This document shows, one piece after another, positions 1,541 through 61,935 of a stretch of 64,000 nucleotides of DNA. The stretch's first letter is position 1. Each line of letters opens with the position of its first letter. The position numbers and the translations under genes are program-made. The stretch lies in contig NZ_JAFLDR010000018.1 of NCBI RefSeq assembly GCF_017302275.1, positions 1-64,000 on the forward strand. Reading direction: 5' to 3'. The notes below the pieces were generated by a model. It ran no database searches. It was not told the origin of the DNA and saw only the letters and a program-made list of their open reading frames with translations. The stretch is from Sulfuritalea sp. (GTDB lineage: Bacteria > Pseudomonadota > Gammaproteobacteria > Burkholderiales > Rhodocyclaceae).

Positions 1541-1565
1541 CGCCGTGCCGCCGGCGCCGACTTTT
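1541..1565 (+). repeat. 25-bp dispersed repeat, copy 1
   Basis: Near-perfect match to the dispersed 25-bp family (CGCCGTGCCG...GCGCCGACTTTT). It lies 15 bases past the rubredoxin stop codon. Confidence 0.85.
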
Positions 1566-1580
1566 CAATTCAATGCGACG

Positions 1581-1745
1581 TCAGATTTCCATCATGACGA
1601 AATCGGCCTTCGGCACGCCGCATTCGGGGCAGACGAAGCTGTCGGGTACGTCGGCCCAGAGCGTGCCCGGCGCCAGGCCGTGGGTTTCGTCGCCAAGGGC
1701 CTCGTCATAGACCCAGCCGCAAACGATGCATTGCCATTTCTTCAT
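1581..1745 (-). CDS. Rubredoxin
   Basis: Small one-iron electron carrier of 54 aa. The two Cys-X2-Cys iron-binding knuckles are visible as C6-x2-C9 (CIVCGWVYD) and C39-x2-C42 (CPECGVPK), with the expected spacing. The ATG at 1745 is preceded by GAGG at a 6-base spacing; the in-frame ATG two codons earlier is too close to that sequence. It stands alone. A likely partner is the rubrerythrin encoded about 5 kb away, which lacks its own rubredoxin domain, but that pairing is inference. A 25-bp dispersed repeat follows the stop. Confidence 0.95.
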   Translation of the reverse strand: MKKWQCIVCGWVYDEALGDETHGLAPGTLWADVPDSFVCPECGVPKADFVMMEI

Positions 1746-1917
1746 TGCCATCCTCGAACATGAAATCGCCAACCGCCATCTTAGCGGCTGGCGCATGCGC
1801 TCGCCAGCGGAAAACCGTTCCGGCTTCGGCGGTGGGGTGAAGGCTCAGCCCGGTTGCCGCCGCTGCGCGAACAGACCGAAAGTGCTCGTGCTGGTTGCGA
1901 TGCGTTTCCAGTTCGGG

Positions 1918-2025
1918 TCAGGCGGCCGCGTCGGCGCCCAGGCTGCCGCTGCTGCACGCCGCGATATCGAACAGGCGTGGGTGCTCGCGGTCGATCTGTT
2001 CCACCCCCGCCAGGAGCTTGTCCTC
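1918..2025 (-). pseudogene. Possible bacteriohemerythrin remnant
   Basis: In the 314-base gap between ubiT and rubredoxin, one frame reads EDKLLAGVEQIDREHPRLFDIA before a stop. This resembles the N-terminal helix of bacteriohemerythrins (GV..ID.EH..LF), including the first iron-binding His context. The remaining helices with the other His/Glu ligands are absent, and downstream sequence is only loosely similar in other frames. No start codon or ribosome site fits. I read it as a decayed fragment; chance similarity is possible. Confidence 0.4.
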
Positions 2026-2059
2026 GAACCGGGGTCGCGCTGGTCGATCGAGTGGCCTC

Positions 2060-2533
2060 TCAGGGCTTGAGGAAGGTCGGGCGCAGGCCCTGCCAGGAAA
2101 GCCGCGGCCATTCCAGCGCGTCGAGCATGTTCTTGACGCGCAGGCCGAGCTCGGTATCGCCCTCGATCGATAGGCTGCGATTGAAGAACAGGGTGTCGGG
2201 GTCTTCCTGGCGGCTGACCATCTGCAGGAAGGCCGAGAGGCGCGCGGTGAAGTGCAGGTCGGGCTGGCCGGAGGAAACGAAGACCGGGCGAAAGGCACCC
2301 TGGCGATAGGCGAAATCGGCCACCATGCCGGTGTCCAGCACGGTCACGCGGAAGTGCCGGCCTTCCAGTTCCCGCAGGCTGTCCTCGGGCAGCACGCCGA
2401 GCTTTTTCGCGGCATTCAGCGCCAACGCCAGGTTCAGCGAATGCGGCCATTGTGGCAGGCGCGCCCCAAGGCGGGCCACCAACGTAGGCAGTGCGAAGGG
2501 GGGAATCGTCGGAAGTTTCAGCGGATTTGCCAT
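2060..2533 (-). CDS. ubiT: UbiT, SCP2-domain accessory factor of O2-independent ubiquinone synthesis
   Basis: Lipid-binding accessory protein of 157 aa with an SCP2-type domain covering most of its length. In the known UbiTUV pathway, UbiT is needed with UbiU and UbiV to hydroxylate the ubiquinone ring without oxygen. ATG at 2533 has GAGAGG upstream. It is third in the ubiU-ubiV-ubiT order with a 10-base gap from ubiV, so it is almost certainly co-transcribed. The name rests on the SCP2-like sequence plus this diagnostic context. Confidence 0.88.
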   Translation of the reverse strand: MANPLKLPTIPPFALPTLVARLGARLPQWPHSLNLALALNAAKKLGVLPEDSLRELEGRHFRVTVLDTGMVADFAYRQGAFRPVFVSSGQPDLHFTARLSAFLQMVSRQEDPDTLFFNRSLSIEGDTELGLRVKNMLDALEWPRLSWQGLRPTFLKP

Positions 2534-2543
2534 GGTCTGCCTC

Positions 2544-3425: not shown

Positions 3426-3430
3426 GTGAC

Positions 3431-4536: not shown

Positions 4537-4561
4537 CACCGTGCTGCCGGCGCCGACTTTC
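4537..4561 (+). repeat. 25-bp dispersed repeat, copy 2
   Basis: Reads CACCGTGCTG then GCGCCGACTTTC. It has the same orientation as copy 3, about 100 bases away. It lies in the gap between DUF3501 and the ubiU promoter. Confidence 0.75.
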
Positions 4562-4661: not shown

Positions 4662-4686
4662 CGCCGTGTCACCGGCGCCGACTTTT
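4662..4686 (+). repeat. 25-bp dispersed repeat, copy 3
   Basis: CGCCGTGTCA then GCGCCGACTTTT, 5 bases past the stop codon of the DUF3501 gene. Confidence 0.85.
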
Positions 4687-6620: not shown

Positions 6621-6671
6621 GGCGTCCTTCCTTGAGCGTTACTTTTCGGGGGATAGGGCGTCGGGGTCGGG

Positions 6672-6693
6672 AGTCGGCGCTGGCGGTACGGCG
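6672..6693 (-). repeat. 25-bp dispersed repeat, copy 4 (22-bp core)
   Basis: Reverse-orientation copy (AGTCGGCGCTGG then CGGTACGGCG), 19 of 22 core positions. It lies 32 bases past the rubrerythrin stop, between it and the Fe-S oxidoreductase gene. Confidence 0.7.
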
Positions 6694-8215: not shown

Positions 8216-8777
8216 GGCGGACGGGTATCGGGATCGTGATGCTGGCGCCGGTTTGCGGCACGGTCGGATCGGCCGTTCGCTCCTGCGCAATGTGGCACGA
8301 GACTATCACGGTCGTGCGTTCGTCGCCGATCCCGACGGTGAAGCCCTGCCCGCGCGCCACCCGGATCGCCGCCGTGTTGCCGGCCTGGATCAGCCCGTGC
8401 AGTCGGCTCTGGCCGCTGCGCACGGCGATCTCCAGCAGGGCGGCAAGCAAGGCCTGGCCAAGCCCCCGGCCGCGCCAGGCCGGCAGCACCATCAGGGCGA
8501 ATTCCGCAACCGTCGCCACGGAGACATTTTCGGCGTGCGCTATCGCCGTGCCGTCGGCGCCGACTCCCAGCAGCACCACCCGGTCGCGTCCGTCGGCCTC
8601 CGCAAGGCGCTGCAAGAGCGCCTGATTGGGCGCATCGCCGTGGGCAAAATGGCGTTCATAGAGGCCGGACTTGTCCATCTGCCGGATCAGGCCGGCCAGC
8701 GCGGGGTGGTCCGCCTGCGTTGCTGGCCGTATCCGGAAGCCTTCACCTAGCATCGCCCAGGGGTGGCGCGCGCTCAC
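8172..8777 (-). CDS. GNAT family N-acetyltransferase
   Basis: Acetyl-CoA-dependent N-acetyltransferase of 201 aa, substrate unknown. The GNAT fold shows in FRIRPATQADHPALAGLIRQM near the N-terminus and the acetyl-CoA-binding loop WRGRGLGQALL. I chose GTG at 8777 because it overlaps the preceding hydrolase stop (GTGA) and has GGAG upstream; the in-frame ATG at 8753 has no ribosome site. A poor match to the 25-bp repeat (8544-8568) encodes GVGADGTA in the core. The C-terminal tail overlaps the start of oxyR. Confidence 0.85.
   Translation of the reverse strand: MSARHPWAMLGEGFRIRPATQADHPALAGLIRQMDKSGLYERHFAHGDAPNQALLQRLAEADGRDRVVLLGVGADGTAIAHAENVSVATVAEFALMVLPAWRGRGLGQALLAALLEIAVRSGQSRLHGLIQAGNTAAIRVARGQGFTVGIGDERTTVIVSCHIAQERTADPTVPQTGASITIPIPVRHDPDRTALHRCPGP
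8544..8568 (+). repeat. Weak match to the 25-bp dispersed repeat, inside the acetyltransferase gene
   Basis: 20 of 25 positions match (CGCCGTGCCG then GCGCCGACTCCC). It may be a diverged copy or chance in GC-rich coding sequence. Confidence 0.35.
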
Positions 8778-10393: not shown

Positions 10394-11902
10394 ATGTCCG
10401 CAAGCTACCCGCCCCTGATTGCTGCTTTGCTGGCCGGGCAGGGCTTTCCCCAGCCGCCGGCAAGGGTCGATCTGGTCGAGACGCATGCCTCGTGGCTGGT
10501 GCTGGCCGACGATCTCGCCTACAAGATCAAGAAGCCGGTCACCCTGCCGTTTCTCGACTACGGCAGCCTGGAACGACGGGAAGACTGTTGCCGCGCCGAA
10601 TTGCAGCTCAACCGGCGCCTCGCGCCGGGGCTCTACCTCGACGTCGTGCCGATAGGCGGCAGCCCGGAGCGCCCACGGATCGGCGCCGAGCCGGCCATCG
10701 AGTGGATGGTATGCATGCGCCGCTTCGACGAGGCGGGGCGGCTCGACCATGTCGCGGCACGCGGCGCACTGCGGACTGAACAGGTGGCACAGCTCGCGGC
10801 GAGCCTGTATGCATTCCATACCGCCGCGCCGATCGCTCAACCTGGCAGCCGTTTCGGCGAGCCGGCGCGGATCGCCGAAACCGCGCGCGAGAACTTCGTC
10901 GAACTGCGTCAGTTGCTGCCCCGGGCCGAGCAGCCCCGCATCGAAGCGCTCGCGTCCTGGACCGAAACCGAGTTCGCCCGACGTGCCGAGGACTTTGCCG
11001 CGCGCAAGCGCGAAGGCTGCATCCGCGAAGGCCACGGCGACCTGCACCTGGGCAATCTGGTGTTGATCGACGGCCATGTCACCGCCTTCGACTGCATCGA
11101 GTTCAATGACGATTTCCGCTGGAACGACCCGATCAGCGAAATCGCCTTCGTCTGGATCGACCTGCTCGACCATGGCCGACCCGGGCTTGCGGCGGCATTT
11201 CTCAATGCCTGGCTGGAAGCAGGCGGGGACTTCGCGGCGATCAAGCTGCTGCGCTTCTACGCCGTGTATCGCGCGGTGGTGCGAGCCAAGATCGCCGCGC
11301 TGCGCGCGCGGCAGGAGGACGAAGCGGCGGCAGCCGGAGAAACCGCCACAGCCTGCGGCTACCTCGATCTGGCGCGGAAAATCGCCGTGCCGCCGGCGCC
11401 GACTCTTGCCATCACCTGTGGCCTGTCGGGCTCGGGCAAGACCACGGCCAGTAGCGCCCGGCTGCTCGACGCCGAACGGCCCGAGGCGGGCCGTCTGCTG
11501 CGCATTCGCTCGGATGTCGAGAGGAAACGCCTGTTCGGCCTGGCGGCGGGGGAAAGCAGCAGATCTCCGCCCGACGGCGGAATCTATACGCCAGAAGCGA
11601 CGGCGCGCACCTATGCCCGGCTGCAGGCACTAAGCCGCGAACTGCTGCTTGCCGGCTGGCCGGTGATCGTCGATGCCGCCTTCCTCAAGCGCGCCGAGCG
11701 CGACCGCTTTGCGGAACTGGCGGCGGAACTCGGCGTCGGCTTCAGCATCCTCGCCACCGAGGCGCCACCGGAAGAACTGCGTCGGCGCCTGCTGGCGCGC
11801 AGCGGCGATGCCTCGGAAGCGACCGTCGATGTACTCGAAAGGCAGTTCGGGTGGTTCGAACCCTTGAGCGCCGCGGAGCAGGCGGTGGCCGTGAGTTCGT
11901 GA
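10394..11902 (+). CDS. Aminoglycoside phosphotransferase-like / P-loop kinase fusion
   Basis: Protein of 502 aa with two modules. Residues ~1-325 are an aminoglycoside/choline phosphotransferase-like domain (HGDLHLGNLVLIDG catalytic loop; DCIEFNDDFRWNDP). Residues ~338-502 are an AAA_33-type P-loop kinase (Walker A GLSGSGKT, about 343-350). This fusion is known as a conserved bacterial protein of unknown substrate. The linker between the modules (about residues 330-338, AVPPAPTL) is encoded by a copy of the 25-bp repeat. A GATAAT hexamer ends 7 bases before the ATG and no Shine-Dalgarno is visible, so the mRNA may be leaderless. Confidence 0.88.
   Translation: MSASYPPLIAALLAGQGFPQPPARVDLVETHASWLVLADDLAYKIKKPVTLPFLDYGSLERREDCCRAELQLNRRLAPGLYLDVVPIGGSPERPRIGAEPAIEWMVCMRRFDEAGRLDHVAARGALRTEQVAQLAASLYAFHTAAPIAQPGSRFGEPARIAETARENFVELRQLLPRAEQPRIEALASWTETEFARRAEDFAARKREGCIREGHGDLHLGNLVLIDGHVTAFDCIEFNDDFRWNDPISEIAFVWIDLLDHGRPGLAAAFLNAWLEAGGDFAAIKLLRFYAVYRAVVRAKIAALRARQEDEAAAAGETATACGYLDLARKIAVPPAPTLAITCGLSGSGKTTASSARLLDAERPEAGRLLRIRSDVERKRLFGLAAGESSRSPPDGGIYTPEATARTYARLQALSRELLLAGWPVIVDAAFLKRAERDRFAELAAELGVGFSILATEAPPEELRRRLLARSGDASEATVDVLERQFGWFEPLSAAEQAVAVSS
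11383..11407 (+). repeat. 25-bp dispersed repeat, copy in domain linker of the kinase fusion
   Basis: CGCCGTGCCG then GCGCCGACTCTT, in frame as AVPPAPTL, exactly between the phosphotransferase and P-loop kinase modules. Confidence 0.8.
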
Positions 11903-16711: not shown

Positions 16712-17650
16712 TCAGTGCCTGCTGCGCTGCGGATGCGCAGCGTGCCATTCGGCCAGCGCCGGGGCTACGTCGCTCAGCGCGCCGATCACGCGCACGCCGG
16801 CGACGCTGCGGCCGCGGCCGGCAAGGCCGGCGCCGCCGGCCCAGAGTCCGGTGGCGGCCGGCAGCGCGGCACGCAGTTCCACCAGCGCATCGCGCGCCTT
16901 GCGCCAGGGATAGGCGGCTGAAAATGAAAGGGCGACGATGTCGGCATGGGTTCCCCGCGCCGCGCCGGCGATATCGGCAATCGGGGTTTGCGCGCCGAGC
17001 GACACGGCAAAGGCGCCGTTGGCGGCGAGCAGCGCCTCGGCCATCAGCAGGCCGAGCAGGTGCTCCTCGTCCTTCACCGTGGTCAGCAGCACCTGCGGTC
17101 GCGTGCCGCGGCCGCCCAGTCCATGGGTCGCCGAGCGCAGCAGGTTCTGCACCAGTTCCGTGTATAGGTGTTCCTCGAAAATCGCGATTTCCCCGCTCAT
17201 CCAGCCGTCGCCGATGCGCAGGTTGAGCGCCGGCACGGTCTCGATGACGAAGCGCTCGAGGCCGTCGCGCGCCAGACGCTGCGACAGCTCGGCGCGCAAC
17301 GTGTCTATGTCGCGCGCCTTGAGCAGGGGCACGATCCACTCCGCCGTGTCGCCAGCGCCGACTTTTTCGGGGGATGCCGCCAGCCTCTCGGTCAATGCCG
17401 CCATCGGCTGGCGCAGCAGGGCGCCGGGGCGCTGGCCCTGATCCATCAGGCGCTTGATCAGGCGCAGGTGCTCTACCTGCTCGGCCGGATAGACGCGTTC
17501 GCCGAACGCATCGCGCAAGGGCTGCGGGAAGCCGTAGCGCCGCTCCCAGACGCGCAGGGTGTCCTTGCCGAGTCCGGTGTCGCGTTCGACGGCGGCAATG
17601 CCGATTCCCTGCGCCGGGCTGGCCGTGATTTCAGGCGGGGTGTTGTCCAT
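16712..17650 (-). CDS. CarH/LitR-like B12-dependent light-sensing MerR repressor
   Basis: Protein of 312 aa. An N-terminal MerR DNA-binding domain (~15-85; DTLRVWERRYGFPQP) is followed by a linker, a B12-binding cap and a Rossmann-like B12-binding domain. The cap holds W150-X9-E160-H161, the W-X9-EH signature of adenosylcobalamin light sensors; the cobalamin-ligating motif is E195-x-H197-x-x-G200 (EEHLLG). Such proteins repress DNA in the dark and release it when light cleaves AdoB12. The linker (residues ~95-103, KVGAGDTA) is encoded by a 25-bp repeat copy. It is divergent from the gpx-folE2-lipid operon with palindromic operators between. TAAAAT ends 6 bases before ATG and there is no Shine-Dalgarno. 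Confidence 0.88.
   Translation of the reverse strand: MDNTPPEITASPAQGIGIAAVERDTGLGKDTLRVWERRYGFPQPLRDAFGERVYPAEQVEHLRLIKRLMDQGQRPGALLRQPMAALTERLAASPEKVGAGDTAEWIVPLLKARDIDTLRAELSQRLARDGLERFVIETVPALNLRIGDGWMSGEIAIFEEHLYTELVQNLLRSATHGLGGRGTRPQVLLTTVKDEEHLLGLLMAEALLAANGAFAVSLGAQTPIADIAGAARGTHADIVALSFSAAYPWRKARDALVELRAALPAATGLWAGGAGLAGRGRSVAGVRVIGALSDVAPALAEWHAAHPQRSRH
17342..17366 (+). repeat. 25-bp dispersed repeat, copy in linker of the CarH-like regulator
   Basis: CGCCGTGTCG then GCGCCGACTTTT; read on the gene strand as KVGAGDTA, between the DNA-binding and B12 modules. Confidence 0.85.
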
Positions 17651-21292: not shown

Positions 21293-22530
21293 ACACCCTG
21301 GTTTCGAATTCCCTTCCCCTGTCGCGGCAACGCCCCGCCGCCGTGCCTTCAGCACTGGCACCCGCGACGCGCACCGCGATCAAGCTGCTGCAGAACATCG
21401 AGGGCGGCAGCCTGCGCCTGATCCTGCCCGATGGCCAGCACATCATGCTCGGCCACGGCGCCGAGCGCGCGACGCTGGAAGTCAACGATGAACGCGTGTT
21501 CCGCCGCGTGCTGGCCGAAGGCGACATCGGCTTCGGCGAGAGCTGGATAGCCGGCGACTGGCACAGCGACCACCCCGCCGAACTGCTGACCCTGCTCGCC
21601 GAGAATCGCGCCCAGCTGGCGCGCGCGGTGCATGGCAGCTGGCTACCGGTCCTCGGCCACCGCCTGCGCCACCTGCTGCGCAGCAACACCCGCGCCGGCT
21701 CGAAGCGCAACATCCTCGCCCACTACGACCTCGGCAACGACTTCTACAAGCTCTGGCTCGACCCGTCGATGAGCTATTCGTCGGCGCTGTTCGGCACCGA
21801 TCCGCAGCAGTCGCTGCAGCAGGCGCAACGCCAGAAGTACCTGCGTCTGCTGGAGATGCTCGAGCCGAAACCGGGCGACACGATCCTCGAAGTCGGCTGC
21901 GGCTGGGGCGGGCTGGCGGAGATCGCCACCACCGAGTTCGGCTGCCGTGTGCATGGCATCACGCTGTCGCCTTCGCAACTGGAGTGGTCGCGGGCGCGCG
22001 CGCAGCAGAAGGGCTTTGCCGACCTCGCCGACTTTTCGCTGACCGACTACCGCGATGTGCGCGGCCGGTACGACCACATCGTCTCCATCGAAATGTTCGA
22101 GGCGGTCGGCGAGCGCTTCTGGCCGGGCTACTTCGCTCAGTTGAATAACTGCCTGAAGCCGGGCGGGCGTGCCGCGGTGCAGACCATCACCATCGCCAAC
22201 GAACGTTTTGGCGCCTACCGGCGCGGCACCGACTTCATCCAGCGCCACATCTTCCCCGGCGGCATGCTGCCTTCGCCCGCGGTCTTCGAACGCCGTGCCG
22301 CCAGCGCCGACTTTTCCGTGCTCGACCGCCATGCCTTCGGCATCGACTACACGCGCACCCTGGCCCACTGGCATGGTGATTTCGAGGCCGCCTGGCCGCA
22401 GATCGCCGTGCAGGGTTTCGACGAGCGCTTCCGCCGCCTGTGGCGCTTCTACCTCGCCTACTGCGAGGCCGGCTTCCGTTCCGGCGCCATCGACGTCTAT
22501 CACTTCCTGCTGGAAAAGCCGCGCGCATGA
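21289..22530 (+). CDS. Cyclopropane-fatty-acyl-phospholipid synthase family methyltransferase
   Basis: SAM-dependent methyltransferase of 413 aa that acts on unsaturated acyl chains of membrane phospholipids. The SAM motif ILEVGCGWGGLAEIA and the Cfa block HYDLGNDFYKLWLDPSMSYSSALF are present; the catalytic region includes SIEMFEAVGERFWPGYF. In this gene context it may make a methylated precursor (for example of furan fatty acids) instead of a cyclopropane. Residues ~335-342 (RRAASADF) are encoded by a 25-bp repeat copy, just before the segment FSVLDRHAFGIDYTRTL. Confidence 0.9.
   Translation: MNTLVSNSLPLSRQRPAAVPSALAPATRTAIKLLQNIEGGSLRLILPDGQHIMLGHGAERATLEVNDERVFRRVLAEGDIGFGESWIAGDWHSDHPAELLTLLAENRAQLARAVHGSWLPVLGHRLRHLLRSNTRAGSKRNILAHYDLGNDFYKLWLDPSMSYSSALFGTDPQQSLQQAQRQKYLRLLEMLEPKPGDTILEVGCGWGGLAEIATTEFGCRVHGITLSPSQLEWSRARAQQKGFADLADFSLTDYRDVRGRYDHIVSIEMFEAVGERFWPGYFAQLNNCLKPGGRAAVQTITIANERFGAYRRGTDFIQRHIFPGGMLPSPAVFERRAASADFSVLDRHAFGIDYTRTLAHWHGDFEAAWPQIAVQGFDERFRRLWRFYLAYCEAGFRSGAIDVYHFLLEKPRA
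22291..22315 (+). repeat. 25-bp dispersed repeat, copy inside the Cfa-like gene
   Basis: CGCCGTGCCG then GCGCCGACTTTT, read as RRAASADF in the C-terminal part of the methyltransferase. Confidence 0.75.
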
Positions 22531-23036: not shown

Positions 23037-24310
23037 TGTCCGCCGCCGCGATGCCGACGCGGCAGATGGTGGCTTATGGCGCGCTCGGCTTTCCGCTGGC
23101 CTTCGCCGCCCTGCCCTTGTACGTCCATGTTCCCAACCTGTATGCCGACAGCGTCGGCCTGCCGCTGGCGCTGGTCGGCGCCGTGCTGCTGCTGACGCGC
23201 TTCGCCGACGCCCTGATCGATCCGCTGCTGGGACAGTGGAGCGATCGCCTCGGCAACCGGCGGCGGCTGATCCTGATCGCGCTGCCCCTGCTCGGCCTCG
23301 GCCTGGCGGCGCTGCTGGCGCCGCCCGCGGACGGCGGCACGACATGGCTGGTGCTGACCCTGGCGTTGACCTTCATCGGCTTCAGCCTGGCCACCATCAA
23401 CTATCACGCCTGGGGCGCCGAGATCGGCGAAACCCCGCAGGAGCGGGTACGCGTTACCGCCGCGCGCGAAATGTTCGCGCTGGGCGGCGTGGTGGTGGCC
23501 GCCGCCCTGCCGTCGCTGCTGGCCAAGGATGTCGCCACGGCGATGCAGCACCTGGGCTGGGTCTTCATTCCGATTCTGGCGCTGGCCGCGCTGGCCACCT
23601 TCGCCGGCGCGCCGCCGGCAAACGCAGCGGCCGGCACGACGCAGCAAGGCCTGCCGCTCTCCGCCGTGTTCGCCGACCCGCGCTTCCGCCGCCTGCTCAC
23701 CGTACTCGCCGTTGGCGGCATCGCCTCGGCGATCCCGGCGACGCTGGTGCTGTTCTTCATCGCCGACGTGCTGCAACTTCAGGAGTGGCAGGGCCTGTTC
23801 CTCGTCATCTACTTCGTCTGTGGCGGCCTCGCCCTGCCGGGCTGGGTGGCGCTTGCCCGCCGCTACGGCAAGGTGCGCACCTGGCTGGCGAGCATGGTGC
23901 TGGCGATCGCCAGCTTCGTCTGGGCCTTCCTGCTCGGACCCGGCGACGGCCTCGCCTTCGCCCTGATCTGCGCCGCCAGCGGCGCCGCGCTCGGCGCCGA
24001 ACTGGCGCTGCCGCCGGCCCTGCTGGCCGACCTGCTGGCGGACGGAAGACGCAAGGGGCGGGCTGCCGCCGGGGCCGGTGCGTATTTCGGCGTCTGGAAT
24101 TTCGTGAACAAATTCAACCTCGCGCTGGCCGCCGGCATCGCCCTGCCGCTGGTCGCCCTGTTCGGCTACAAAGTCGGCGCCGGCGATACGGCGAATCAGG
24201 GGCTGTTCGCCCTGGCCGCCACCTACGCCCTGCTGCCGGCCGCGATCAAGGTGGTTTCCCTGCTGCTGCTGTGGCGCTGGCAGCATCATTTCGAAGGAAG
24301 GACATCATGA
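23033..24310 (+). CDS. MFS transporter, GPH (glycoside-cation symporter)-like
   Basis: Inner-membrane transporter of 425 aa with about 12 helices. The DALIDPLLGQWSDRLGNRRR motif between helices 2 and 3 and the WGAEIGETPQERVRV segment mark the GPH group. The substrate is unknown. The same kind of transporter accompanies the amine oxidase/Cfa set in other genomes. The loop before the last helix (residues ~380-387, KVGAGDTA) is a 25-bp repeat copy. Confidence 0.87.
   Translation: MMSAAAMPTRQMVAYGALGFPLAFAALPLYVHVPNLYADSVGLPLALVGAVLLLTRFADALIDPLLGQWSDRLGNRRRLILIALPLLGLGLAALLAPPADGGTTWLVLTLALTFIGFSLATINYHAWGAEIGETPQERVRVTAAREMFALGGVVVAAALPSLLAKDVATAMQHLGWVFIPILALAALATFAGAPPANAAAGTTQQGLPLSAVFADPRFRRLLTVLAVGGIASAIPATLVLFFIADVLQLQEWQGLFLVIYFVCGGLALPGWVALARRYGKVRTWLASMVLAIASFVWAFLLGPGDGLAFALICAASGAALGAELALPPALLADLLADGRRKGRAAAGAGAYFGVWNFVNKFNLALAAGIALPLVALFGYKVGAGDTANQGLFALAATYALLPAAIKVVSLLLLWRWQHHFEGRTS
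24170..24193 (-). repeat. 25-bp dispersed repeat, copy in last loop of the MFS transporter
   Basis: Reverse orientation: AAAGTCGGCGCC then GGCGATACGGCG. In frame as KVGAGDTA between the last two helices. Confidence 0.85.
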
Positions 24311-26071: not shown

Positions 26072-27259
26072 GTGCCGCGCCGTGTCGCAGGCGCCGACTT
26101 TTGGCTGAGCCCGACGGTGGACGCAACCGCCGTCGTCGCCATCGAGGCGCGCCTGGAATGGCACAGCGATCAGGCGGCCCATGTCGATCGCCTGTTGGTA
26201 AGGCCCCCGGCGCTGCAGGCCGATGACCGCTGGCGGGCGGCGGGCGAGGACGTGCTGCGCGGCGACACCGCCGCGCTTGACCCGGCGCCCTTGTGCCAGC
26301 CCTGCGGGCAGCCGAATCTCGCGCTGGCGCGGGCCGGCTTGCGGCTGCCGGCCGAGCTTGCCGTCGGCCGCCATTACCCGCGCGGAATCTTCGGCCGGGC
26401 GCCGGGCAGCCCGCGCGACATGCGCCCCGTGCGGCTGGCGGAGCTTGCGGATGACGGCACGCTGCAGCTTGACCCCAACCATCCGCTGGCCGCCGCCCAA
26501 GCTCGCATGATCCTCGCGCCCGCAGCGGCGCCGGCGGCACCCGCGCTGCGGCTCGAAGAACTGTTTGCCGGACCCGGCATGCAGCGTCTGCCCGCGGCGC
26601 CCGCGCTCGCCTACTTCACGCCCGGAGCCTTCGACCGGTCCGACGCGGCAAGCGACATCGCCTTCTACGCCCGGCCACGCCTGACGCAACACCTCGACGC
26701 CCGCTGCCGGGCCGAGCTCGCGGCCCTCTACGGCCGCCTGCTGCAGCCCGGCATGCGCGTGCTCGACCTGATGGCCGGCGTCGACAGCCACCTGCCGCCG
26801 GCGCCGGCCGGGCTGGAAGTGGCCGGGCTCGGCATGAACGCGGAAGAACTCGCCGCCAACCCGCGCCTGACGGAACGCGTGGTGCAGGACCTGAACGCCA
26901 GCGCCGTCCTGCCCTGGCCCGACGCCGGCTTTGACGCCGTGCTCAATACCGCATCGATCGAGTACCTGCTGCGACCGGCTGCGGTGGTCGCCGATGTGCT
27001 GCGCGTGCTGCGTCCCGGCGGCGTGTTTGCCGTGGCCTTTTCCGACCGCTGGTTTCCGACCCGGGCCATCGCGGTCTGGTCCCGGCTGCACGCCTTCGAG
27101 CGCATGGGCCTGGTGCTGAGCCTGCTTTACCAGGCCGGCTTTACCGACCTGCATACCGAGTCGCTGCGCGGCGCGGCGCGCCCGGCCGACGATCGCTACA
27201 TCACGGTGCGTGATTTCGCCGATCCGCTGTTCGTGGTCCGGGGCCGCAAACGCGACTGA
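26072..27259 (+). CDS. SlyD-like FKBP domain fused to a SAM-dependent methyltransferase
   Basis: Protein of up to 395 aa. The middle part (~100-155: GRHYPRGIFGRAPGSPRDMRPVRL...LDPNHPLA) resembles the C-terminal part of SlyD-type peptidyl-prolyl isomerases. The rest (~200-395) is a type-11 methyltransferase (MRVLDLMAGVDSHLP, LPWPDAGFDAVLNTASIEYLLRPAAVVADVLRVLRPGG). The first possible start, GTG 26072, lies within a 25-bp repeat copy that would encode RRVAGADF; a later GTG at 26117 is possible. No good ribosome site is seen for either. It follows the lipid operon by 18 bases and probably belongs to it; the substrate is unknown. Confidence 0.75.
   Translation: MPRRVAGADFWLSPTVDATAVVAIEARLEWHSDQAAHVDRLLVRPPALQADDRWRAAGEDVLRGDTAALDPAPLCQPCGQPNLALARAGLRLPAELAVGRHYPRGIFGRAPGSPRDMRPVRLAELADDGTLQLDPNHPLAAAQARMILAPAAAPAAPALRLEELFAGPGMQRLPAAPALAYFTPGAFDRSDAASDIAFYARPRLTQHLDARCRAELAALYGRLLQPGMRVLDLMAGVDSHLPPAPAGLEVAGLGMNAEELAANPRLTERVVQDLNASAVLPWPDAGFDAVLNTASIEYLLRPAAVVADVLRVLRPGGVFAVAFSDRWFPTRAIAVWSRLHAFERMGLVLSLLYQAGFTDLHTESLRGAARPADDRYITVRDFADPLFVVRGRKRD
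26078..26102 (+). repeat. 25-bp dispersed repeat, at start of the methyltransferase fusion gene
   Basis: CGCCGTGTCG then GCGCCGACTTTT, 24 bases after the SnoaL-like stop; read as RRVAGADF if GTG 26072 is the start. Confidence 0.85.
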
Positions 27260-32768: not shown

Positions 32769-32943
32769 CGATCCATTCGCCTTGCGCGTGTTTCATCTTC
32801 AAGGGTGGAGTCAGCGCAGCATGAGCGTTTGGCAGAGGAAATTCAGTGCGACACACGTGAGTATCTTGACTCCCTTCGCCTCTGTCAATTTTTTGCGGAT
32901 CCGCAGGGAGAAACAGGGCAGTCCGCGAGAAAACCGCCCACAC

Positions 32944-32968
32944 CGCCGTATCGCCAGCGCCGACTTTC
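32944..32968 (+). repeat. 25-bp dispersed repeat, after the norD-like gene
   Basis: CGCCGTATCG then GCGCCGACTTTC, 43 bases past the norD-like stop codon. Confidence 0.85.
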
Positions 32969-37525: not shown

Positions 37526-38098
37526 ATGAACATGACTGGAATGCATGCCGCCCTGGCGGCAATCCTGATATGCCTCGCCACTCCCGGCGAGGCCGGCCGT
37601 GCCGGCAGTCGCTCGTCGTCCTCGAAGTCGAGCGCCAGCCCGCCGCCGTCCGCAACGAAGAGCGCGTATCGCGACGCGGCCACGCCGGCTAAAAGCGGAG
37701 GGATCAATATCAACATCAATACCGGCAGTTCGTCTGCCGGTGGCGCATCGTCGACCGGTGTGGCCGCCGGTGCCGCAGTCGGTGTCGCGGCGGGCGCGAT
37801 CGCAGGATCCGCAGCGGCGAAGAAATCGCCCGACGACCCGCAGCGCGAGATGGACCGGCAGAGCCAGCAGGTGGAGCTGGCGCGGATCGCCGACGAAAAA
37901 CGCCGGGCGGATGAAAAGCGCAAGGCCGAGGAACTCGAGCGGCTGGCCAGGGAAGCCGAGGAGGATCGCAAGCAGGAAGCGGCGCGCCTTGCAGCGGAAA
38001 AGAAAAAGAGGGAAGTCGCTCGGCAGCAAACCGATGTCACCCCCCGCTGCGTGCTGAAGCCGGTAATGACGGACGCCGAGATCGCGCGCTGCCGCTGA
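37526..38098 (+). CDS. Exported low-complexity/coiled-coil hypothetical protein
   Basis: Protein of 190 aa. It has a signal peptide (MHAALAAILICLATPGEA), a Ser-rich stretch, GGININI repeats, a small-residue helix (TGVAAGAAVGVAAGAIAGSAAA) and a charged coiled-coil segment rich in Glu, Arg and Lys (about 115-170), ending with two cysteines. Probably periplasmic or outer-membrane associated. No known family recognised. The stop codon overlaps the start of a diverged 25-bp repeat copy. Confidence 0.75.
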   Translation: MNMTGMHAALAAILICLATPGEAGRAGSRSSSSKSSASPPPSATKSAYRDAATPAKSGGINININTGSSSAGGASSTGVAAGAAVGVAAGAIAGSAAAKKSPDDPQREMDRQSQQVELARIADEKRRADEKRKAEELERLAREAEEDRKQEAARLAAEKKKREVARQQTDVTPRCVLKPVMTDAEIARCR

Positions 38099-38119
38099 GT
38101 CGGCGCCGACGGCACGGCG
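38098..38119 (-). repeat. 25-bp dispersed repeat, diverged copy at a stop codon
   Basis: AGTCGGCGCCGA then CGGCACGGCG, 20 of 22 core positions; its first base is the last base of the preceding TGA stop. Confidence 0.65.
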
Positions 38120-38808: not shown

Positions 38809-39987
38809 TTACTGCGTGAGGTAGTCCGTCACCGCGACCCAGCGGCCGTTCTGGATCTGGCCGACCTTGGACTTGTCGTTGCCCAGATGCTGCTTGGGTC
38901 CGAACTTGTACTCGGGGCTGCCGAACATGTCGCGCGCGAAGGTGGTGCTCTCCAGGGTCTTGATGAAGTTGTCGGTGGTCAGGTTCGGCCCCGTCTTCTT
39001 CGCCGTCTGCATGAACATGTCCATCGCCACATAGCCATAGGCCGAGAACAGGCCGGGGTCCTCGTTGAACTTGGCCTTGTAGGATGCGAACCAGTCGCGC
39101 ACGTTCTTCGACGGGTCGTCTGCGTACGGTACCGCGACCTGATGGAAGGCATAGAGCCCGTCCATGGCCTTGCCGCCCAGCTTGTGGATCAGGTCCGTAT
39201 AGGCCGCCGAGGAACCGACGAAGTTCGGGTTCCAGCCCATCTTGCGCGCCGTGCCGATGGTGCCGATGGTCTCGCGGATGATGGTGCCGAGCACGACCGT
39301 GTCGCAATCCGCCGCCTTCATTTTCGACACCTGGGCCGAGAAATCGGTGGCGCCGCGCTTGAAGGAGGTCTTTTCGGCGAAGGCCATGTTGATGTCCTTG
39401 AGGCCGTCCTCGGCGCCCTTGAGCACTTCGGTGCCGAAGTCGTCATCCTGGTAGATGACGCAGAACTTCTTGGCGCCGCGCTCCTTGACCATCCACGACA
39501 TGCCCTTGCGCATCTGGTTGTAATAGGGCGCGGCGAAGGAGAACTTGAGCTTGTGCAACGGCTCGTACATTTCACGCGCCGCGGTGAGCGGGAAGAGGTT
39601 CATCACGCCCTTGTCGAACAGGGTCGGGAAGGTGGCGAGGTTCACCGCCGTGCCGATGGTGCCGACCATGGCGAAGAGCTTGTCCTGCTGCACCATCTTC
39701 TGCGCCGCGAGCAGGCCCTTCTTCGGATCGTAGCCGGAATCCTCGGCGATGAACTTGACCTTGCGCCCGTTGATGCCGCCGGATTCGTTGACCTCGTCGA
39801 CGCGCATCTGCATGCCGAAGCGCAGGGCCTTGCCGAAGCCGGCCAGCGGCCCGGAAAGGTCCTGGATGGTGCCGATCACGATTTCGTTCTTGCTGACGCC
39901 CATCTGCTCCGCGGCGATCGCCGTGGTGCCGGCGCCGACTCCTGCAACGGCCAGCGCGGCGACGGCCAGTTTCATGCTTTTCTTCAT
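38809..39987 (-). CDS. LivK-type ABC transporter substrate-binding protein
   Basis: Exported binding protein of 392 aa (type I periplasmic fold: IVIGTIQDLSGPLAGFGKALRFGMQMRVDEVNESGGINGRKV). The signal peptide is about 26 residues. It delivers its ligand to the LivHMGF permease encoded upstream. Because an acyl-CoA ligase is in the same operon, the ligand may be an aromatic or fatty acid instead of an amino acid; this is inference. A weak 25-bp repeat match falls in the signal peptide (GVGAGTTA). Confidence 0.9.
   Translation of the reverse strand: MKKSMKLAVAALAVAGVGAGTTAIAAEQMGVSKNEIVIGTIQDLSGPLAGFGKALRFGMQMRVDEVNESGGINGRKVKFIAEDSGYDPKKGLLAAQKMVQQDKLFAMVGTIGTAVNLATFPTLFDKGVMNLFPLTAAREMYEPLHKLKFSFAAPYYNQMRKGMSWMVKERGAKKFCVIYQDDDFGTEVLKGAEDGLKDINMAFAEKTSFKRGATDFSAQVSKMKAADCDTVVLGTIIRETIGTIGTARKMGWNPNFVGSSAAYTDLIHKLGGKAMDGLYAFHQVAVPYADDPSKNVRDWFASYKAKFNEDPGLFSAYGYVAMDMFMQTAKKTGPNLTTDNFIKTLESTTFARDMFGSPEYKFGPKQHLGNDKSKVGQIQNGRWVAVTDYLTQ
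39919..39943 (+). repeat. Weak match to the 25-bp repeat in the LivK signal peptide
   Basis: 21 of 25 positions (CGCCGTGGTG then GCGCCGACTCCT). It could be chance in an Ala/Gly/Thr-rich signal peptide. Confidence 0.4.
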
Positions 39988-45704: not shown

Positions 45705-45729
45705 CGCCGTTTCCCCGGGGCCGACTTTT
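45705..45729 (+). repeat. 25-bp dispersed repeat, upstream of livH
   Basis: CGCCGTTTCC then GGGCCGACTTTT. One of two intergenic copies not next to a stop codon; it lies about 100 bases upstream of the livH start. Confidence 0.7.
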
Positions 45730-46819: not shown

Positions 46820-47320
46820 ATGAAACCCGTTTGCCTGGCACTCCCACTGCTGTTCGCAATAGGTCTAAGCGGCTGCGACGCCACACGGCTGGCAAACCTG
46901 AGGCCGGGCAGTTCGATGGCCACCGAGGTCCGCGCGCTGTTCGGCGCGCCGGCGGCGGAATGGCCTAATCCGGACGGCAGCGTGACCTGGGAATATCCGC
47001 GCGGCCCGGAGGGAACGCGCACCTGGATGCTGACGCTCGACCCGCGCTCCGTGCTGCAATCGATCGGGCAGGCGCTGACGGAAGAAAACTTCGCGCGCAT
47101 CCAACACGGCTGGCGCCCGGAGCAGGTGCGGCGCCTGCTGGGCAAGCCTTCAGGCACGGTCCGCTTCCCGCAGAAGGCCGAAGAGGTATGGGAATGGCGC
47201 ATCGCTCCGCTGGAGCCGATCAACAGCGCGTGGTTCCATGTGCACTTCGGCCCCGACGGCAGGGTGACCGGGACCTCGCGCCGCGAGGAAGCGCCGGTGG
47301 GCGGGCCCGACCAGAACTAG
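46820..47320 (+). CDS. BamE/SmpA-like lipoprotein, tandem copy 1
   Basis: Predicted lipoprotein of 166 aa. The signal peptide ends at lipobox LSGC; then come two BamE-like repeats, each with a GxxxxEVRxLFGxPxxxW-type turn (ATEVRALFGAPAAEW; PEQVRRLLGKPSGTV). Probably outer-membrane anchored. The next gene is a close paralogue. TATCCT ends 7 bases before ATG and there is no Shine-Dalgarno, so the mRNA may be leaderless. Confidence 0.82.
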   Translation: MKPVCLALPLLFAIGLSGCDATRLANLRPGSSMATEVRALFGAPAAEWPNPDGSVTWEYPRGPEGTRTWMLTLDPRSVLQSIGQALTEENFARIQHGWRPEQVRRLLGKPSGTVRFPQKAEEVWEWRIAPLEPINSAWFHVHFGPDGRVTGTSRREEAPVGGPDQN

Positions 47321-47362
47321 GCGGCGGCTGGCCCGGCCGGCGTTTGCAGGTATCATCGTCGC

Positions 47363-47851
47363 ATGAACCCGCTCACCCGCATGCTCGCCGCGCTGGCGTC
47401 CGTCCTCGGCTTTTACGGCTGCGACGCGGCACATCTGGCCGACCTCAAACCCGGCGTTTCGACGGCGCAGGAGGTGCGCGAACGCCTCGGCGCTCCGGGT
47501 GCTGAATGGCCCAACGCCGACGGCAGCGTGACCTGGGAATACACCCGCCAACCGCAGGGCACGCGCTGCTACATGCTGACGCTGAACCAGGGCGGCGTGC
47601 TGCAGAAGATCGACCAGGTGCTGACCGAAGCCAACTTCGCGCGCGTCGAAAAGGGCTGGAGCGCGGAACAGGTAAGACGTCTGCTGGGCCGGGCCGCGGG
47701 CGAAACGAAATTCCCGCTGAAACCGGAAGTGGTGCGCGAGTGGCGCGTCGAGCCGGTGACGCCGGGCAACAACGCTTTTTTCCATGTTCATTTCACCCTC
47801 GACGGCTTTGTCACCCACACCTCGCGCCGCGAGGAGCAGCCAGTCGGTTGA
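47363..47851 (+). CDS. BamE/SmpA-like lipoprotein, tandem copy 2
   Basis: Paralogue of the preceding gene (162 aa), alike along its whole length (AQEVRERLGAPGAEWPNADGSVTWEY; AEQVRRLLGRAAGET). The lipobox is weaker (FYGC). TATCAT ends 6 bases before ATG with no Shine-Dalgarno. The pair arose by tandem duplication; both keep intact frames. Confidence 0.82.
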   Translation: MNPLTRMLAALASVLGFYGCDAAHLADLKPGVSTAQEVRERLGAPGAEWPNADGSVTWEYTRQPQGTRCYMLTLNQGGVLQKIDQVLTEANFARVEKGWSAEQVRRLLGRAAGETKFPLKPEVVREWRVEPVTPGNNAFFHVHFTLDGFVTHTSRREEQPVG

Positions 47852-48372: not shown

Positions 48373-48397
48373 CAAAGTCGGCGCCGGCGCCACGGCG
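48373..48397 (-). repeat. 25-bp dispersed repeat, between rhodanese and metH
   Basis: Reverse orientation (CAAAGTCGGCGCC then GGCGCCACGGCG). 16 bases after the rhodanese stop and immediately before the metH -10 hexamer. Confidence 0.85.
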
Positions 48398-48567: not shown

Positions 48568-52275
<3,708 letters not shown>

Positions 52276-52772: not shown

Positions 52773-52797
52773 CGGCGTCCCGCCGGCACCGACTTTT
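52773..52797 (+). repeat. 25-bp dispersed repeat, between convergent genes
   Basis: CGGCGTCCCG then GCACCGACTTTT. It fills most of the 43-base gap between two convergent stops. Confidence 0.75.
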
Positions 52798-57098: not shown

Positions 57099-58033
57099 CA
57101 GGCGCGCAGGTAGGTCGGCGCGATGACTTCCAGCGCCGTGGCGACGCGGCCAAATGGCAGGCCGCAGCCGCTTTCGCAAACGCTGGGCACGCGCATCGAT
57201 CGCACGTTGTCGCGCGTCATCGGGCCATTGGGGATGAACTCCATGGCCCAGGCCTGCAGCCAGGCGATGGCCTCGGGCAGACCGATCACGGCGCGCGGAT
57301 GGCCGGCGACGGCGCTCGCGTAACGCACCAGCTCGGCCAGCGCGTACTGCTTCGGCCCACACAGTTCGTAGATGGCGCCGATGCTTTGCGAATTGGCGAG
57401 GCTGTCGGCCACCGTTGCGGCCACGTCCTCGACCCAGACCGGCTGGAAGCGCGCGGAAGCACCCGCCAAAGGGAAGAAAGGCGCGATCCTGGCCATGCGC
57501 GCGAACAGCGTAAGGAAGGAATCGCCGCGACCGAAGATCACCGAGGGACGGAAGATCGTCAGGTCCAGCCCGGCCGCTTGCAACGCCGCCTCGCCGAACG
57601 CCTTGGAACGCAGGTAGCCCGAAGGCGCATCCGCCGCCGCCTTGAGCGCAGAGACATGCAGCACGCGCCGCACGCCGGCCGCCTTGGCCGCTGCGGCGAT
57701 CTTCTGCGGCAGCTCGACGTGGGCGCGGGCGAAACCCTTGCCATACGGGTCACCCTCACCACCCTTGAGGACGCCGACCAGGCTAATCACCGCATCCTGG
57801 CCTGCCATCAGCCGCGCCAGCGTGGCCGGATCATGCACGTCCAATTCCAGCACGCGTGCCGTCGGCAACACGGTGAGGTGTTTGGCGCCGGCCTCGCGCC
57901 GTGTCGGCAGCGTGAAACAACAGTCGGCGCCCCACAGGGACTTCCTTTGGTCGCTGGCGGGACGGCGAGCCAGCTCGCGGACGACCGCGCTGCCCAAAAA
58001 ACCGCTGCCGCCGATGACGAGAATGTTCTTCAC
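57098..58033 (-). CDS. NAD(P)-binding epimerase/NDUFA9-like protein
   Basis: Complex I NDUFA9-like short-chain epimerase-type protein of 311 aa (ILVIGGSGFLGSAVVREL nucleotide motif; VLHVSALKAAADAPSGYLRSKAFGE; IFRPSVIFGRGD). It may act on or bind a quinone or lipid-linked substrate; role unknown. GTG 58033 overlaps the slt stop. Residues ~25-42 (PASDQRKSLWGADCCFTL) look like an extra segment between the first helix and the usual PTRR strand. Confidence 0.85.
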   Translation of the reverse strand: MKNILVIGGSGFLGSAVVRELARRPASDQRKSLWGADCCFTLPTRREAGAKHLTVLPTARVLELDVHDPATLARLMAGQDAVISLVGVLKGGEGDPYGKGFARAHVELPQKIAAAAKAAGVRRVLHVSALKAAADAPSGYLRSKAFGEAALQAAGLDLTIFRPSVIFGRGDSFLTLFARMARIAPFFPLAGASARFQPVWVEDVAATVADSLANSQSIGAIYELCGPKQYALAELVRYASAVAGHPRAVIGLPEAIAWLQAWAMEFIPNGPMTRDNVRSMRVPSVCESGCGLPFGRVATALEVIAPTYLRA

Positions 58034-60006: not shown

Positions 60007-60048
60007 GCGGTGATCTCGATTCGACTTCTTTCAGCCCAACATTAGCAC

Positions 60049-60654
60049 ATGCCCCCGACGACGCCGTCCGCCGAACACCCCGCAGATTCGAGAGCTGTTC
60101 GCGCCGCGTTGCGCCGCGAACGGCTGGCGGCGCGCATGGCGCTGGACGATGCCGGCCATGCGGCGCTTTCGTCCCGCGTCGGCACCCATTTGGCGGCGCT
60201 GCTGGACGCGCTGCCGGCGCAGACCGTGGCCTTCTGCGCCCCGCTGCGTCGCGAGTTCGACGCCCGTGCGCTGGTCGTGCGCCTGCTCGACCGCGGCTGG
60301 CGCGCGGCGATGCCGGTGGTGGTTGCGGCCGAGGCGCCGATGGTTTTTCGCGAATGGGCGCCGGACGCGGTGATGGCGGTCGATCGCCACGGCATCCCGA
60401 TCCCGCGCGATGGCGCCGAAGTGACGCCCGAGATACTGCTGCTGCCGCTGGTGGCTTTCGACTCACGGGGCTATCGCCTTGGCTATGGCGGAGGCTATTT
60501 CGACCGCACGCTGGCGGCGATGGTTCCGCGCCCGCTGGCCGTCGGCATCGGCTACGAACTGTGCCGGGTGGCCGACATCCACCCCGAACCACACGATATC
60601 GCGCTGGACGTGCTGGTCACCGAGGCGGGAGCGTTTCATCCGCGCGTCAAGTAG
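60049..60654 (+). CDS. 5-formyltetrahydrofolate cyclo-ligase
   Basis: Enzyme of 201 aa that converts 5-formyl-THF to 5,10-methenyl-THF with ATP. The ATP/folate motif LGYGGGYFDRTL and PLVAFDSRGYRLG are clear, and RRERLAARMAL near the N-terminus fits. It salvages folate and so complements MetH and FolE2 in this window. No 6S RNA is seen upstream. Confidence 0.93.
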   Translation: MPPTTPSAEHPADSRAVRAALRRERLAARMALDDAGHAALSSRVGTHLAALLDALPAQTVAFCAPLRREFDARALVVRLLDRGWRAAMPVVVAAEAPMVFREWAPDAVMAVDRHGIPIPRDGAEVTPEILLLPLVAFDSRGYRLGYGGGYFDRTLAAMVPRPLAVGIGYELCRVADIHPEPHDIALDVLVTEAGAFHPRVK

Positions 60655-60675
60655 AGCGTTCCGGCAAAACCGTTA

Positions 60676-60748
60676 CCGTTCGCGGTGAGCCTGTCGAACC
60701 GCGTTTCTCCCTGCCACGAGGGGCCTGCGACAGGCCCAGGCCGAACGG
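60676..60748. repeat. REP-like inverted repeat
   Basis: Arms of 21 bases (60676-60696, starting CCGTTCGCGG; 60728-60748, ending CCGAACGG) pair at 17 positions. Sequences of the type TTCGACAGGCTCA...CGAACGG are widespread intergenic repeats in Proteobacteria. It lies between two convergent genes. Confidence 0.7.
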
Positions 60749-60780
60749 TTTCGTTGGAAACGTCTCGCGGGAATGGCCTG

Positions 60781-61935
60781 CTAAGGCCGCGCCGCGCTGT
60801 CCAGGCGCCGCAGGGCTTCGTCGAGCAGCGAGCGCCGTGTGCCGAAATTGAGCCGGACGAAGCCCGGCGCGCCGAAGTCCGCGCCATCGGAGAGACCGAG
60901 GCCGTGTTCCTCGAAATAGCGCGCCGGATGGGCTACGCCATGGTCGGCGGCGAATTCGCGCGCGTCGATCCAGGCCAGATACGTGGCTTCCACCGGCCGC
61001 ATGTCGAGGCCAGGGATGTCCTCCACGGCGCGCTCGACCGCGCGCGCGTTGCCGCGCAGGTAGTCGAGCAGGGCCGCATGCCAGTCGTCGCACTCGGTCA
61101 ACGCCGCTTCCGTCGCTACCATGCCGAGCGCATTGACGTGGGGCACGATGCCATGCAGCGCGGCACGGAAACGATGGCGCAGGGTCGCATCGGAGATGAC
61201 GGCGAAGGCACAGCCGAGTCCCGGAATGTTGAAGGTCTTCGACGGCGCCAGCAGGGTGATGCTGCGTGCGGCCACCTCCGGGGCGAGTGTCGCGAAAAGT
61301 CGGTGCCGGTGATACGGCGAAAGCACGAGGCCGTTGTGGATTTCGTCCGAACAGACCACCAGGTCGTGCTTTTCCGCCAGCGCGGCGACCTGCCACAACT
61401 CGTCCTCGCTCCAGGCGCGGCCGGTCGGATTGTGCGGATGGCAAAGCTGGAACAGGTTCGCCCTGCTGCCCTTGAGCACCGCGTCGACCGCCGGGAAATC
61501 CCACAGCCAGCCGGCGGAATCGCGCACCAGCGGAGCACTTGCCACGTGCCGGCCGGAGTCGACCGGCGCCGACAGGAAGGGCGGATAGATCGGCGTCGCG
61601 GTGAATATCGCATCGCCCGGCTCGCCCACGGCGCGGCAGGCGACATTGAGGCCCGACACCAGGCCCGGCAGCCAGACGATCCATTCCGGCTCGATGCTCC
61701 AGGCAAACTTGCGCGCGAGGTAGCCGGCCACCGCCTCGACCTGGCTCGCGGTTGGCTGGTTGTAGCCGAACACGCCGTGCTCGACGCGACGCCGCAGCGC
61801 CGCCAGCACCGCAGGCGGCGCCGCGAAATCCATGTCGGCGACCCACAGCGGGATGATGTCCCGTCCGGCATGCCGCGCCCACTTCACCGAATCGGTGCCG
61901 GCGCGCTCGACGACGGCATCGAAGTCGAAGTTCAT
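60781..61935 (-). CDS. MalY/PatB family PLP-dependent C-S lyase
   Basis: Aminotransferase-fold enzyme of 384 aa, cystathionine beta-lyase type of the MalY/PatB group. Motifs: WVADMDFAAPPAV, LCHPHNPTGRAWS, SDEIHNGLVL, and the PLP lysine in APSKTFNIPGLG. It would release homocysteine, pyruvate and ammonia from cystathionine, feeding MetH. A 25-bp repeat copy (read as SPYHRHRLF, residues ~206-214) directly follows the SDEIHNGLVL motif. Confidence 0.92.
   Translation of the reverse strand: MNFDFDAVVERAGTDSVKWARHAGRDIIPLWVADMDFAAPPAVLAALRRRVEHGVFGYNQPTASQVEAVAGYLARKFAWSIEPEWIVWLPGLVSGLNVACRAVGEPGDAIFTATPIYPPFLSAPVDSGRHVASAPLVRDSAGWLWDFPAVDAVLKGSRANLFQLCHPHNPTGRAWSEDELWQVAALAEKHDLVVCSDEIHNGLVLSPYHRHRLFATLAPEVAARSITLLAPSKTFNIPGLGCAFAVISDATLRHRFRAALHGIVPHVNALGMVATEAALTECDDWHAALLDYLRGNARAVERAVEDIPGLDMRPVEATYLAWIDAREFAADHGVAHPARYFEEHGLGLSDGADFGAPGFVRLNFGTRRSLLDEALRRLDSAARP
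61295..61319 (-). repeat. 25-bp dispersed repeat, copy inside the MalY/PatB gene
   Basis: Reverse orientation (AAAAGTCGGTGCC then GGTGATACGGCG). In the gene it is read in a third frame as SPYHRHRLF. Confidence 0.75.

Follow-up and report, generated by a model that had tools for sequence, protein, structure and literature searches.

Uptake of DNA guided by a genomic word has been attributed to the families Neisseriaceae and Pasteurellaceae, in the excerpts of the literature on which our statements about published systems are based. The words concerned are the DNA uptake sequence (DUS) of the former and the uptake signal sequence (USS) of the latter. We analysed a 25-bp motif dispersed through 64,000 nucleotides of Sulfuritalea sp. 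(Rhodocyclaceae), namely positions 1 to 64,000 of contig NZ_JAFLDR010000018.1 in assembly GCF_017302275.1, a stretch hereafter called the window. In its abundance, its genus-specific spellings, its placement, its replacement of sequence in place, and its conservation, the motif resembles the published profile of uptake sequences (comparable traits of DUS and USS are given in PMC3630211, PMC2397512, PMC1939737, PMC12616744, and PMC2346458), and for this reason we propose that it may be read by a DNA receptor. On this analysis, we put the chance that the 25-mer is a DNA self-recognition (uptake) signal working like DUS and USS at about one half.

A 25-bp word dispersed through the window and the genome

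The repeated unit is a sharp-edged, non-palindromic 25-mer, CGCCGTRYCGCCRGCGCCGACTYTT. When scored over its last 24 positions, 19 copies in the window (12 on the forward and 7 on the reverse strand) match GCCGTRYCRCCRGCGCCGACTYTT with at most three mismatches, against no match in 100 dinucleotide shuffles of the window. These are the 17 copies listed in a preliminary description of this DNA together with the two it had called weaker. Their occurrence in both orientations was rightly reported there, and their positions were correct to within three bases (the copy placed at 38098, for example, spans 38095-38118 on the reverse strand). A longer form at 57919-57967 (reverse strand) was missing from that list. 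The sequence logo confines the information to positions 0-24, with flanks near zero except for a weak T at position -1, in line with the unrelated flanks that had been described. One logo was built from loci selected for the motif and is therefore biased, unlike the sampled stretches of genome G069 (see below). Positions 6, 7, 22, and 24 are loose, and position 12 is A or G. The near palindrome GTCG-CCGGCGC-CGAC suggested earlier does not hold for the family as a whole, since positions 6 and 7, on which its left GTCG depends, rank with the most variable ones. The short form lacks a conserved hairpin.

The genome from which the window comes (4.41 Mb in 88 contigs) contains 355 forward and 366 reverse copies at up to three mismatches, i.e., 721, where the reversed control gives 1 and 0. 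Such massive over-representation on both strands is a mark of uptake sequences. The earlier guess of about a thousand copies per genome was of the right order, and the two observations on which the preliminary description had staked the repeat both turned out in its favour: counts far exceed the control, and copies abound outside the window. The window is denser in copies (one per 3.4 kb) than the whole genome (one per 6.1 kb). We also used a second genome of the genus, G069, which is assembled as one contig; 1.88 of its 3.80 Mb were sampled, in stretches selected independently of the motif. It has 36, 109, 96, 71, and 29 copies at 0, 1, 2, 3, and 4 mismatches, respectively, against 0, 0, 0, 1, and 2 in the control, and the two become equal from six mismatches on.

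At least one match was found in 82 of 150 sampled genomes of the family. Seven genera are rich in the motif—g1 (that of the window), g8, g19, g38, g45, g46, and g64—with 131 to 741 copies per genome in 16 genomes, including the present one; the remaining genomes of this sample have at most 39 copies each. In a sample of 200 genomes of the order, searched with a related pattern, 15 matched: G000 (426 copies), G080 (200), G019 (78), and 12 genomes with 1 to 4. Eleven of these 12 belong to other families, the other (G029) to the same one; 183 of the 194 sampled genomes of other families had no match to this pattern. Exact copies among the matches listed (80 of at least 112 stretches) come from records named Rhodocyclaceae, Rhodocyclales, Sulfuritalea, Sulfurisoma, and Rugosibacter and, in a few cases, from records assigned to Burkholderiaceae or to nothing below the class. 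The motif is scarce in some species whose genera otherwise carry it: G247 (g19, 87% complete) has one copy, G155 (g10) one to three, and G225 (g1) 69. The low count of G155 contrasts with the 15 other genomes of g10, which carry 10 to 184 copies.

Near-exact copies also occur in clusters within genomes otherwise poor in the motif or free of it (G083:C1:1461266-1502267, G055:C50:1691-12983, G428:C3:26360-30943, and G475:C34:277115-285480). These small clusters look like blocks donated by a motif-rich relative. Among the 2.9 million viral contigs of IMG/VR, 46 stretches contain an exact copy, with one or two copies each.

Genus-specific spellings around a shared core

The motif is spelled differently in different genera. 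When a looser pattern was applied to 395 genomes, g10 and g66 turned out to use another spelling, ...GGGACTGACTTTT. Spellings read from samples (n = 6 to 23) are GCCGTCTCGCCAGCGCCGACTTTT in g8, GCCGTCC..CCAGCGCCGACTTT in g19, GCCGTnTCRCCAGCGCCGACTTTT in g64, and GCCGTsCyGC.G.GACTGACTTTT in g10; that of g45 is ...CCAGCGTCGACTTT. Their common core is GCCGT...GACTTTT. When genomes are grouped by their genus labels, the motif thus shows clade-specific dialects built on a shared core, as uptake sequences do.

Placement and spacing of the copies

Genes were called with a simple purpose-made predictor, and their starts are approximate. Within the window, 10 copies lie between predicted genes and 9 inside them. 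In G069, 218 of the 304 placed copies are in genes and 86 between them (8 copies at the edges of stretches were excluded), in a sample of which 11.6% is intergenic DNA. Density is accordingly 0.39 per kb between genes and 0.13 per kb within them, and reaches 0.89 per kb between convergent genes. The same contrast appears in 324 kb of the window's own genome, window included (32 intergenic and 35 genic copies; 0.75 versus 0.12 per kb). Intergenic copies lie at a median distance of 22 nt (G069) and 43 nt (own genome) from the neighbouring stop codon, and of 89 nt and 103 nt from the neighbouring start. No clear trend was seen in their position along genes. Density is also lower where the DNA is poorer in GC: stretches with 65% GC or more have 0.24 copies per kb, those below 55% have 0.04. 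The sparse copies in low-GC, maybe foreign, stretches fit a rarity in atypical DNA, which is only suggestive, as the motif itself is GC-rich. Enrichment between genes and depletion at low GC are what is described of uptake sequences, which occupy permissive sites and are rare in atypical DNA.

The reading frames of genic copies in G069 are used unevenly: 97 copies read VGAGDTA, 49 AVSPAPTF, 35 RxASADF, 29 a fourth frame, and 4 each the two arginine-rich frames. A codon model expects 70, 7, 97, 35, 6, and 3 per frame and so matches the observed use only partly. Under this model, an exact in-frame copy has an expectation of 2.8e-6 (about three per million samples of the same size), whereas 24 exact genic copies are present. 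A protein-coding repeat was rejected, because copies occur in all six frames as well as between genes.

Neighbouring copies keep more distance than expected by chance. Of the distances, 5.9% are below 500 bp and 13.5% below 1 kb, where random placement gives 11.1% and 21.0%; their coefficient of variation is 0.73 instead of 0.89. Values as low as these three came up in 0, 1, and 0 of 500 simulations, respectively.

Conservation and origin of the copies

We assessed conservation on 552 copies that depart from the 18 fixed positions by no more than one mismatch. Of these, 133 yielded 177 best-hit alignments with partners in other genomes, whose orthology was judged from sequence alone. Whichever of the seven classes of flank identity is considered, conservation is higher at the fixed positions than in the flanks (0.81 versus 0.61 in the lowest class, 1.00 versus 0.93 in the highest). 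The six loose positions are less conserved than the flanks in all seven, barely so in the lowest (0.595 versus 0.610). The motif is kept at up to three mismatches by 130 of the 177 partners. Gaps fall within it in 26% of the alignments, against 19% for control 24-mers. There is no excess of empty sites, since deletions of nine or more bases in the partner were found in 3 of 177 motif alignments and 13 of 708 controls.

Protein alignments inform on how copies arise. From 214 genic windows we obtained 200 alignments, covering 104 copies, in which the partner had the motif (102), lacked it (94), or was in between (4). Among the 94 alignments with motif-free partners (46 copies), none has eight or nine extra residues, and 36 are gapless; six or more extra residues are seen in seven, which represent five copies. 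Two of these five lie in low-complexity stretches, while p182 shows a clear gain of ten residues. When such partners are at least 60% identical, 9 of 13 alignments lack gaps. In p139 and p180, segments that are 80-83% identical differ by the exchange of about eight consecutive residues. On the strength of these gapless alignments and residue swaps, the motif mostly overwrites pre-existing sequence, leaving its length unchanged. An ordinary insertion element was rejected, because homologues show no excess of empty sites of motif length. Origin by replacement and conservation as a word are both traits of uptake sequences: in Neisseria, many recent DUS have been found to lie beyond the reach of point mutation and were ascribed to recombination (PMC2397512).

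Long forms with hairpin cassettes

Some copies are longer, with a cassette between the fixed ends CGCCGT...GACTYTT. Long forms of 61 bp carry a hairpin in one direction (five full and one partial) or in the reverse (four and a variant). Five others, of 49-52 bp, end in GCATAACTYT. The GAAGGAAGYCCC cassette is found in five forms, in the window copy, and in one degraded copy, and one further type was seen once. Several cassettes share the same ends, each at several unrelated places, and one type is present in both directions between identical ends. All inserts found are multiples of three, also between predicted genes. Among the matches listed, a few matching places have the short motif in one genome and the same ends with a cassette in another. 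Long forms are the minority: of 279 right ends in G069, 199 are paired with a left end at the distance of the short form and 9 at that of the 61-bp form, and the counts of long and short copies are about 15 and 312 in G069 and 5 and 67 in a sample of the window's own genome.

A possible uptake signal and its alternatives

If the motif is an uptake signal, free DNA carrying it would be bound by a surface-exposed DNA receptor, probably located on a type IV pilus. This binding would favour the import of DNA that bears the motif, and recombination of the imported fragments would spread the word and keep it where the sequence tolerates it. Spellings proper to each genus would then mean that exchange takes place mostly within genera. 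The genome of the window encodes ComEC and has one match to ComP_DUS-type pilins.

A number of observations weigh against such a role. Carriers could be competent, but competence genes are not tied to the motif: ComEC (381 of 395 genomes of the family), ComP_DUS-type pilins (PF16732; 138 of 150), GspH/FimT (17 of 18), and DprA (16 of 18 above the cut-off) occur nearly regardless of it. DprA did not exceed the cut-off in the motif-rich G001 or in G073, which has the g10 dialect, and GspH had no match in G010. The distributions of ComEC, the pilin, GspH/FimT, and DprA single out no receptor, and no search for a reader protein was made. The motif-poor G225, G247, and G155 retain matches to ComEC, DprA, and GspH/FimT. 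Loss of competence genes was thus rejected as the explanation for their few copies, as was the ComP-type pilin as a discriminating gene, given its presence in most of the family. The motif also has features at odds with known uptake words. It is 25 contiguous bp long, against about 10-13 for DUS (roughly 13 in PMC12616744), and about 5% of its copies carry a hairpin cassette inside. Close inverted pairs, which in DUS are frequent and act as terminators, are rare here: 379 copies include just 2 neighbour pairs less than or equal to 40 bp apart. Counts per 20 kb do not clearly exceed random placement in evenness, since 12% of simulations are as even. When the replication strand is assigned from the switch in GC skew, intergenic copies are oriented 32:62 (p = 0.003), and both replichores show the same preference; part of this might stem from mutation bias acting on a C-rich word. 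For DUS and USS, the excerpt of PMC1939737 states that there is no replication-strand bias. Orientation within genes is balanced (102:116, p = 0.38), and all copies together give 134:178 (p = 0.015).

The discovery of long forms led us to soften a pure uptake reading. A broader formulation, which we regard as possible at clearly less than even odds, is that of a self-spreading 25-bp word that would overwrite DNA in place and at constant length, by uptake or by direct conversion of patches, and would also accept interchangeable hairpin cassettes between its fixed ends. It would be either a third uptake system, of independent origin and with an unusually long contiguous site, or a repeat of a new kind that replaces sequence and does not insert. 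A related proposal dispenses with uptake: the repeat would spread by itself, through gene conversion or transposition, with the short form as the smallest in a set of small hairpin elements that share fixed ends. The interchangeable cassettes at unrelated places, one of them in both directions, the places where one genome has the short form and another a long one, the somewhat more frequent gaps within the motif, and the ten-residue gain in p182 all speak for it. Yet long forms are few (9 versus 199 spacings in G069), empty sites of motif length are not in excess, and neighbour spacing is not random. The Y1 transposase (of the type associated with repetitive extragenic palindromic elements, REP, and known as RAYT) was found in 10 of the 19 genomes searched but not in seven genomes rich in the motif or the g10 dialect (G038, G045, G064, G019, G080, G126, and G073). 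We think that such a repeat is unlikely, and a REP/RAYT element proper was rejected on the same negative result for the transposase. The preliminary description had considered a very small mobile unit. As an ordinary inserting element this is not supported by the alignments with motif-free homologues, although gain or loss does occur inside a minority of copies, the long forms.

Of the four readings which that description had offered, a sequence read by a protein, here in the form of an uptake-like signal, is the best fit. The protein could also be intracellular, with a function in nucleoid organisation, segregation, or recombination, and the motif a regular site every few kb. The length and high information content of the motif, its strong conservation at the same place across species, the rarity of close neighbours, and the mild intergenic strand bias would all suit such a site, so that the chromosome-organising motif proposed earlier is possible. 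However, orientation is near balanced overall and balanced in genes, low-GC stretches have fewer copies, and G247 and G155 are almost devoid of the motif despite belonging to carrier genera. On balance this explanation seems doubtful. The intergenic orientation bias might also suggest a polar signal used in replication or repair, comparable to Chi or the FtsK-orienting polar sequences (KOPS), but the overall and genic biases are far weaker than in these marks, which are moreover much shorter than 25 bp; we find this highly improbable. We give even less credit to a transcription terminator or an RNA processing signal, the last of the earlier readings. Copies are over-represented close to stop codons and in the gaps that separate convergent genes, and the motif ends in a short run of T, but within 80 bp past stop codons 43 copies have the same orientation as the gene and 43 the opposite one, which contradicts this as a general explanation. 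Furthermore, 218 of 304 placed copies in G069 are inside genes, and the short form has no conserved hairpin.

If the uptake reading is true, environmental Rhodocyclaceae would provide a third case of an uptake word, with a long motif, genus spellings, and species in which it is nearly lost. Such a case could serve to test, independently of the known systems, whether selfish drive or selection spreads these words. The donated-looking clusters suggest that the motif may reveal which environmental bacteria exchange DNA, and G225, G247, and G155 are natural controls for finding the protein that reads it. If it is not an uptake signal, it is an unexplained site with about 700 copies, conserved across the chromosomes of a whole group.

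Features of the window and related loci

The copies are listed in Table 1 together with long forms from other sampled loci.

Table 1. Positions of motif copies in the window and of long forms carrying a cassette.
Feature	Location	Strand	Mismatches	Context and matching places
Motif copy	1542..1565	+	0	between genes
Motif copy	4538..4561	+	3	between genes
Motif copy	4663..4686	+	0	between genes
Motif copy	6669..6692	-	2	between genes
Motif copy	8545..8568	+	3	inside predicted gene
Motif copy	11384..11407	+	0	in gene; 3-mismatch copy at matching place in G117
Motif copy	17343..17366	+	0	in gene; kept in place in G117 and G008
Motif copy	22292..22315	+	0	in gene; kept in G117, identical in G008; G126 homologue has other sequence there, without gap
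Motif copy	24169..24192	-	1	in gene; kept in G117
Motif copy	26079..26102	+	1	between genes
Motif copy	32945..32968	+	1	between genes
Motif copy	34236..34259	-	0	in gene
Motif copy	38095..38118	-	3	counted as intergenic; low end overlaps a weak predicted gene
Motif copy	39920..39943	+	3	in gene
Motif copy	45706..45729	+	3	between predicted genes
Motif copy	48373..48396	-	2	between genes
Motif copy	50469..50492	-	2	in gene; 3-mismatch copy at matching place in G069
Motif copy	52774..52797	+	3	between convergent genes
Motif copy	61295..61318	-	1	in gene
Long form	57919..57967	-		both motif ends with a 24-bp cassette between; short motif at matching place in G069
Long form	L122 4995-5041			hairpin cassette
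Long form	L153 6693-6736			hairpin cassette
Long form	L161 17284-17330			hairpin cassette
Long form	L239 17194-17240			hairpin cassette
Long form	L185 16847-16905			hairpin cassette
Long form	L199 1575-1633			hairpin cassette

The window has other repeated sequences. A second dispersed repeat of about 120 bp, unrelated to the motif, lies at 32670-32832 and recurs, among the matches listed, at more than 30 places in G069, G001, G117, G038, and G008. At 46870-47847, neighbouring stretches 546 bp apart are 72-75% alike, which looks like a gene duplication. In G069, another dispersed word, ATCCGCAGATTTCGCAGATT, was observed; the 15-mer was counted 32 times in the sampled half of the genome.

Comparison with known systems

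No earlier description of the motif was found in the literature searched, and 12-letter pieces of it matched, in the portions of text covered, only work on plant disease resistance. Chi and KOPS are words of about 8 bp and strongly polar. The motif is also a short word dispersed over the chromosome, with a mild intergenic strand bias, but its orientation reaches only 134:178 overall. With REP elements and their RAYT it shares hundreds of short dispersed copies, and its long forms have hairpins; unlike them, the short motif has no conserved hairpin, is common in genes, and the Y1 transposase was not found in seven genomes rich in the motif or its g10 dialect.

The USS of Pasteurellaceae likewise has hundreds of copies or more and dialects in its subclades. 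Even spacing has been reported for it (PMC1939737, citing others), as has a bias in intragenic orientation (PMC2346458). Its sequence is unrelated to that of the motif; it has a 9-bp core and is described as discontinuous (PMC12616744). The DUS of Neisseriaceae is denser, with about one copy per 1-1.5 kb against one per about 6 kb for the motif, which further differs in its few inverted pairs, its mild intergenic strand bias, and the hairpin cassettes of some copies. The neisserial core GCCGTCTGAA starts with GCCGT, the same first five letters as the motif, which may be chance. As with DUS, the motif is the most abundant long repeat of the genome, lies within and between genes without the orientation of a terminator, has dialects within the family, arises by replacement, and is conserved as a word.

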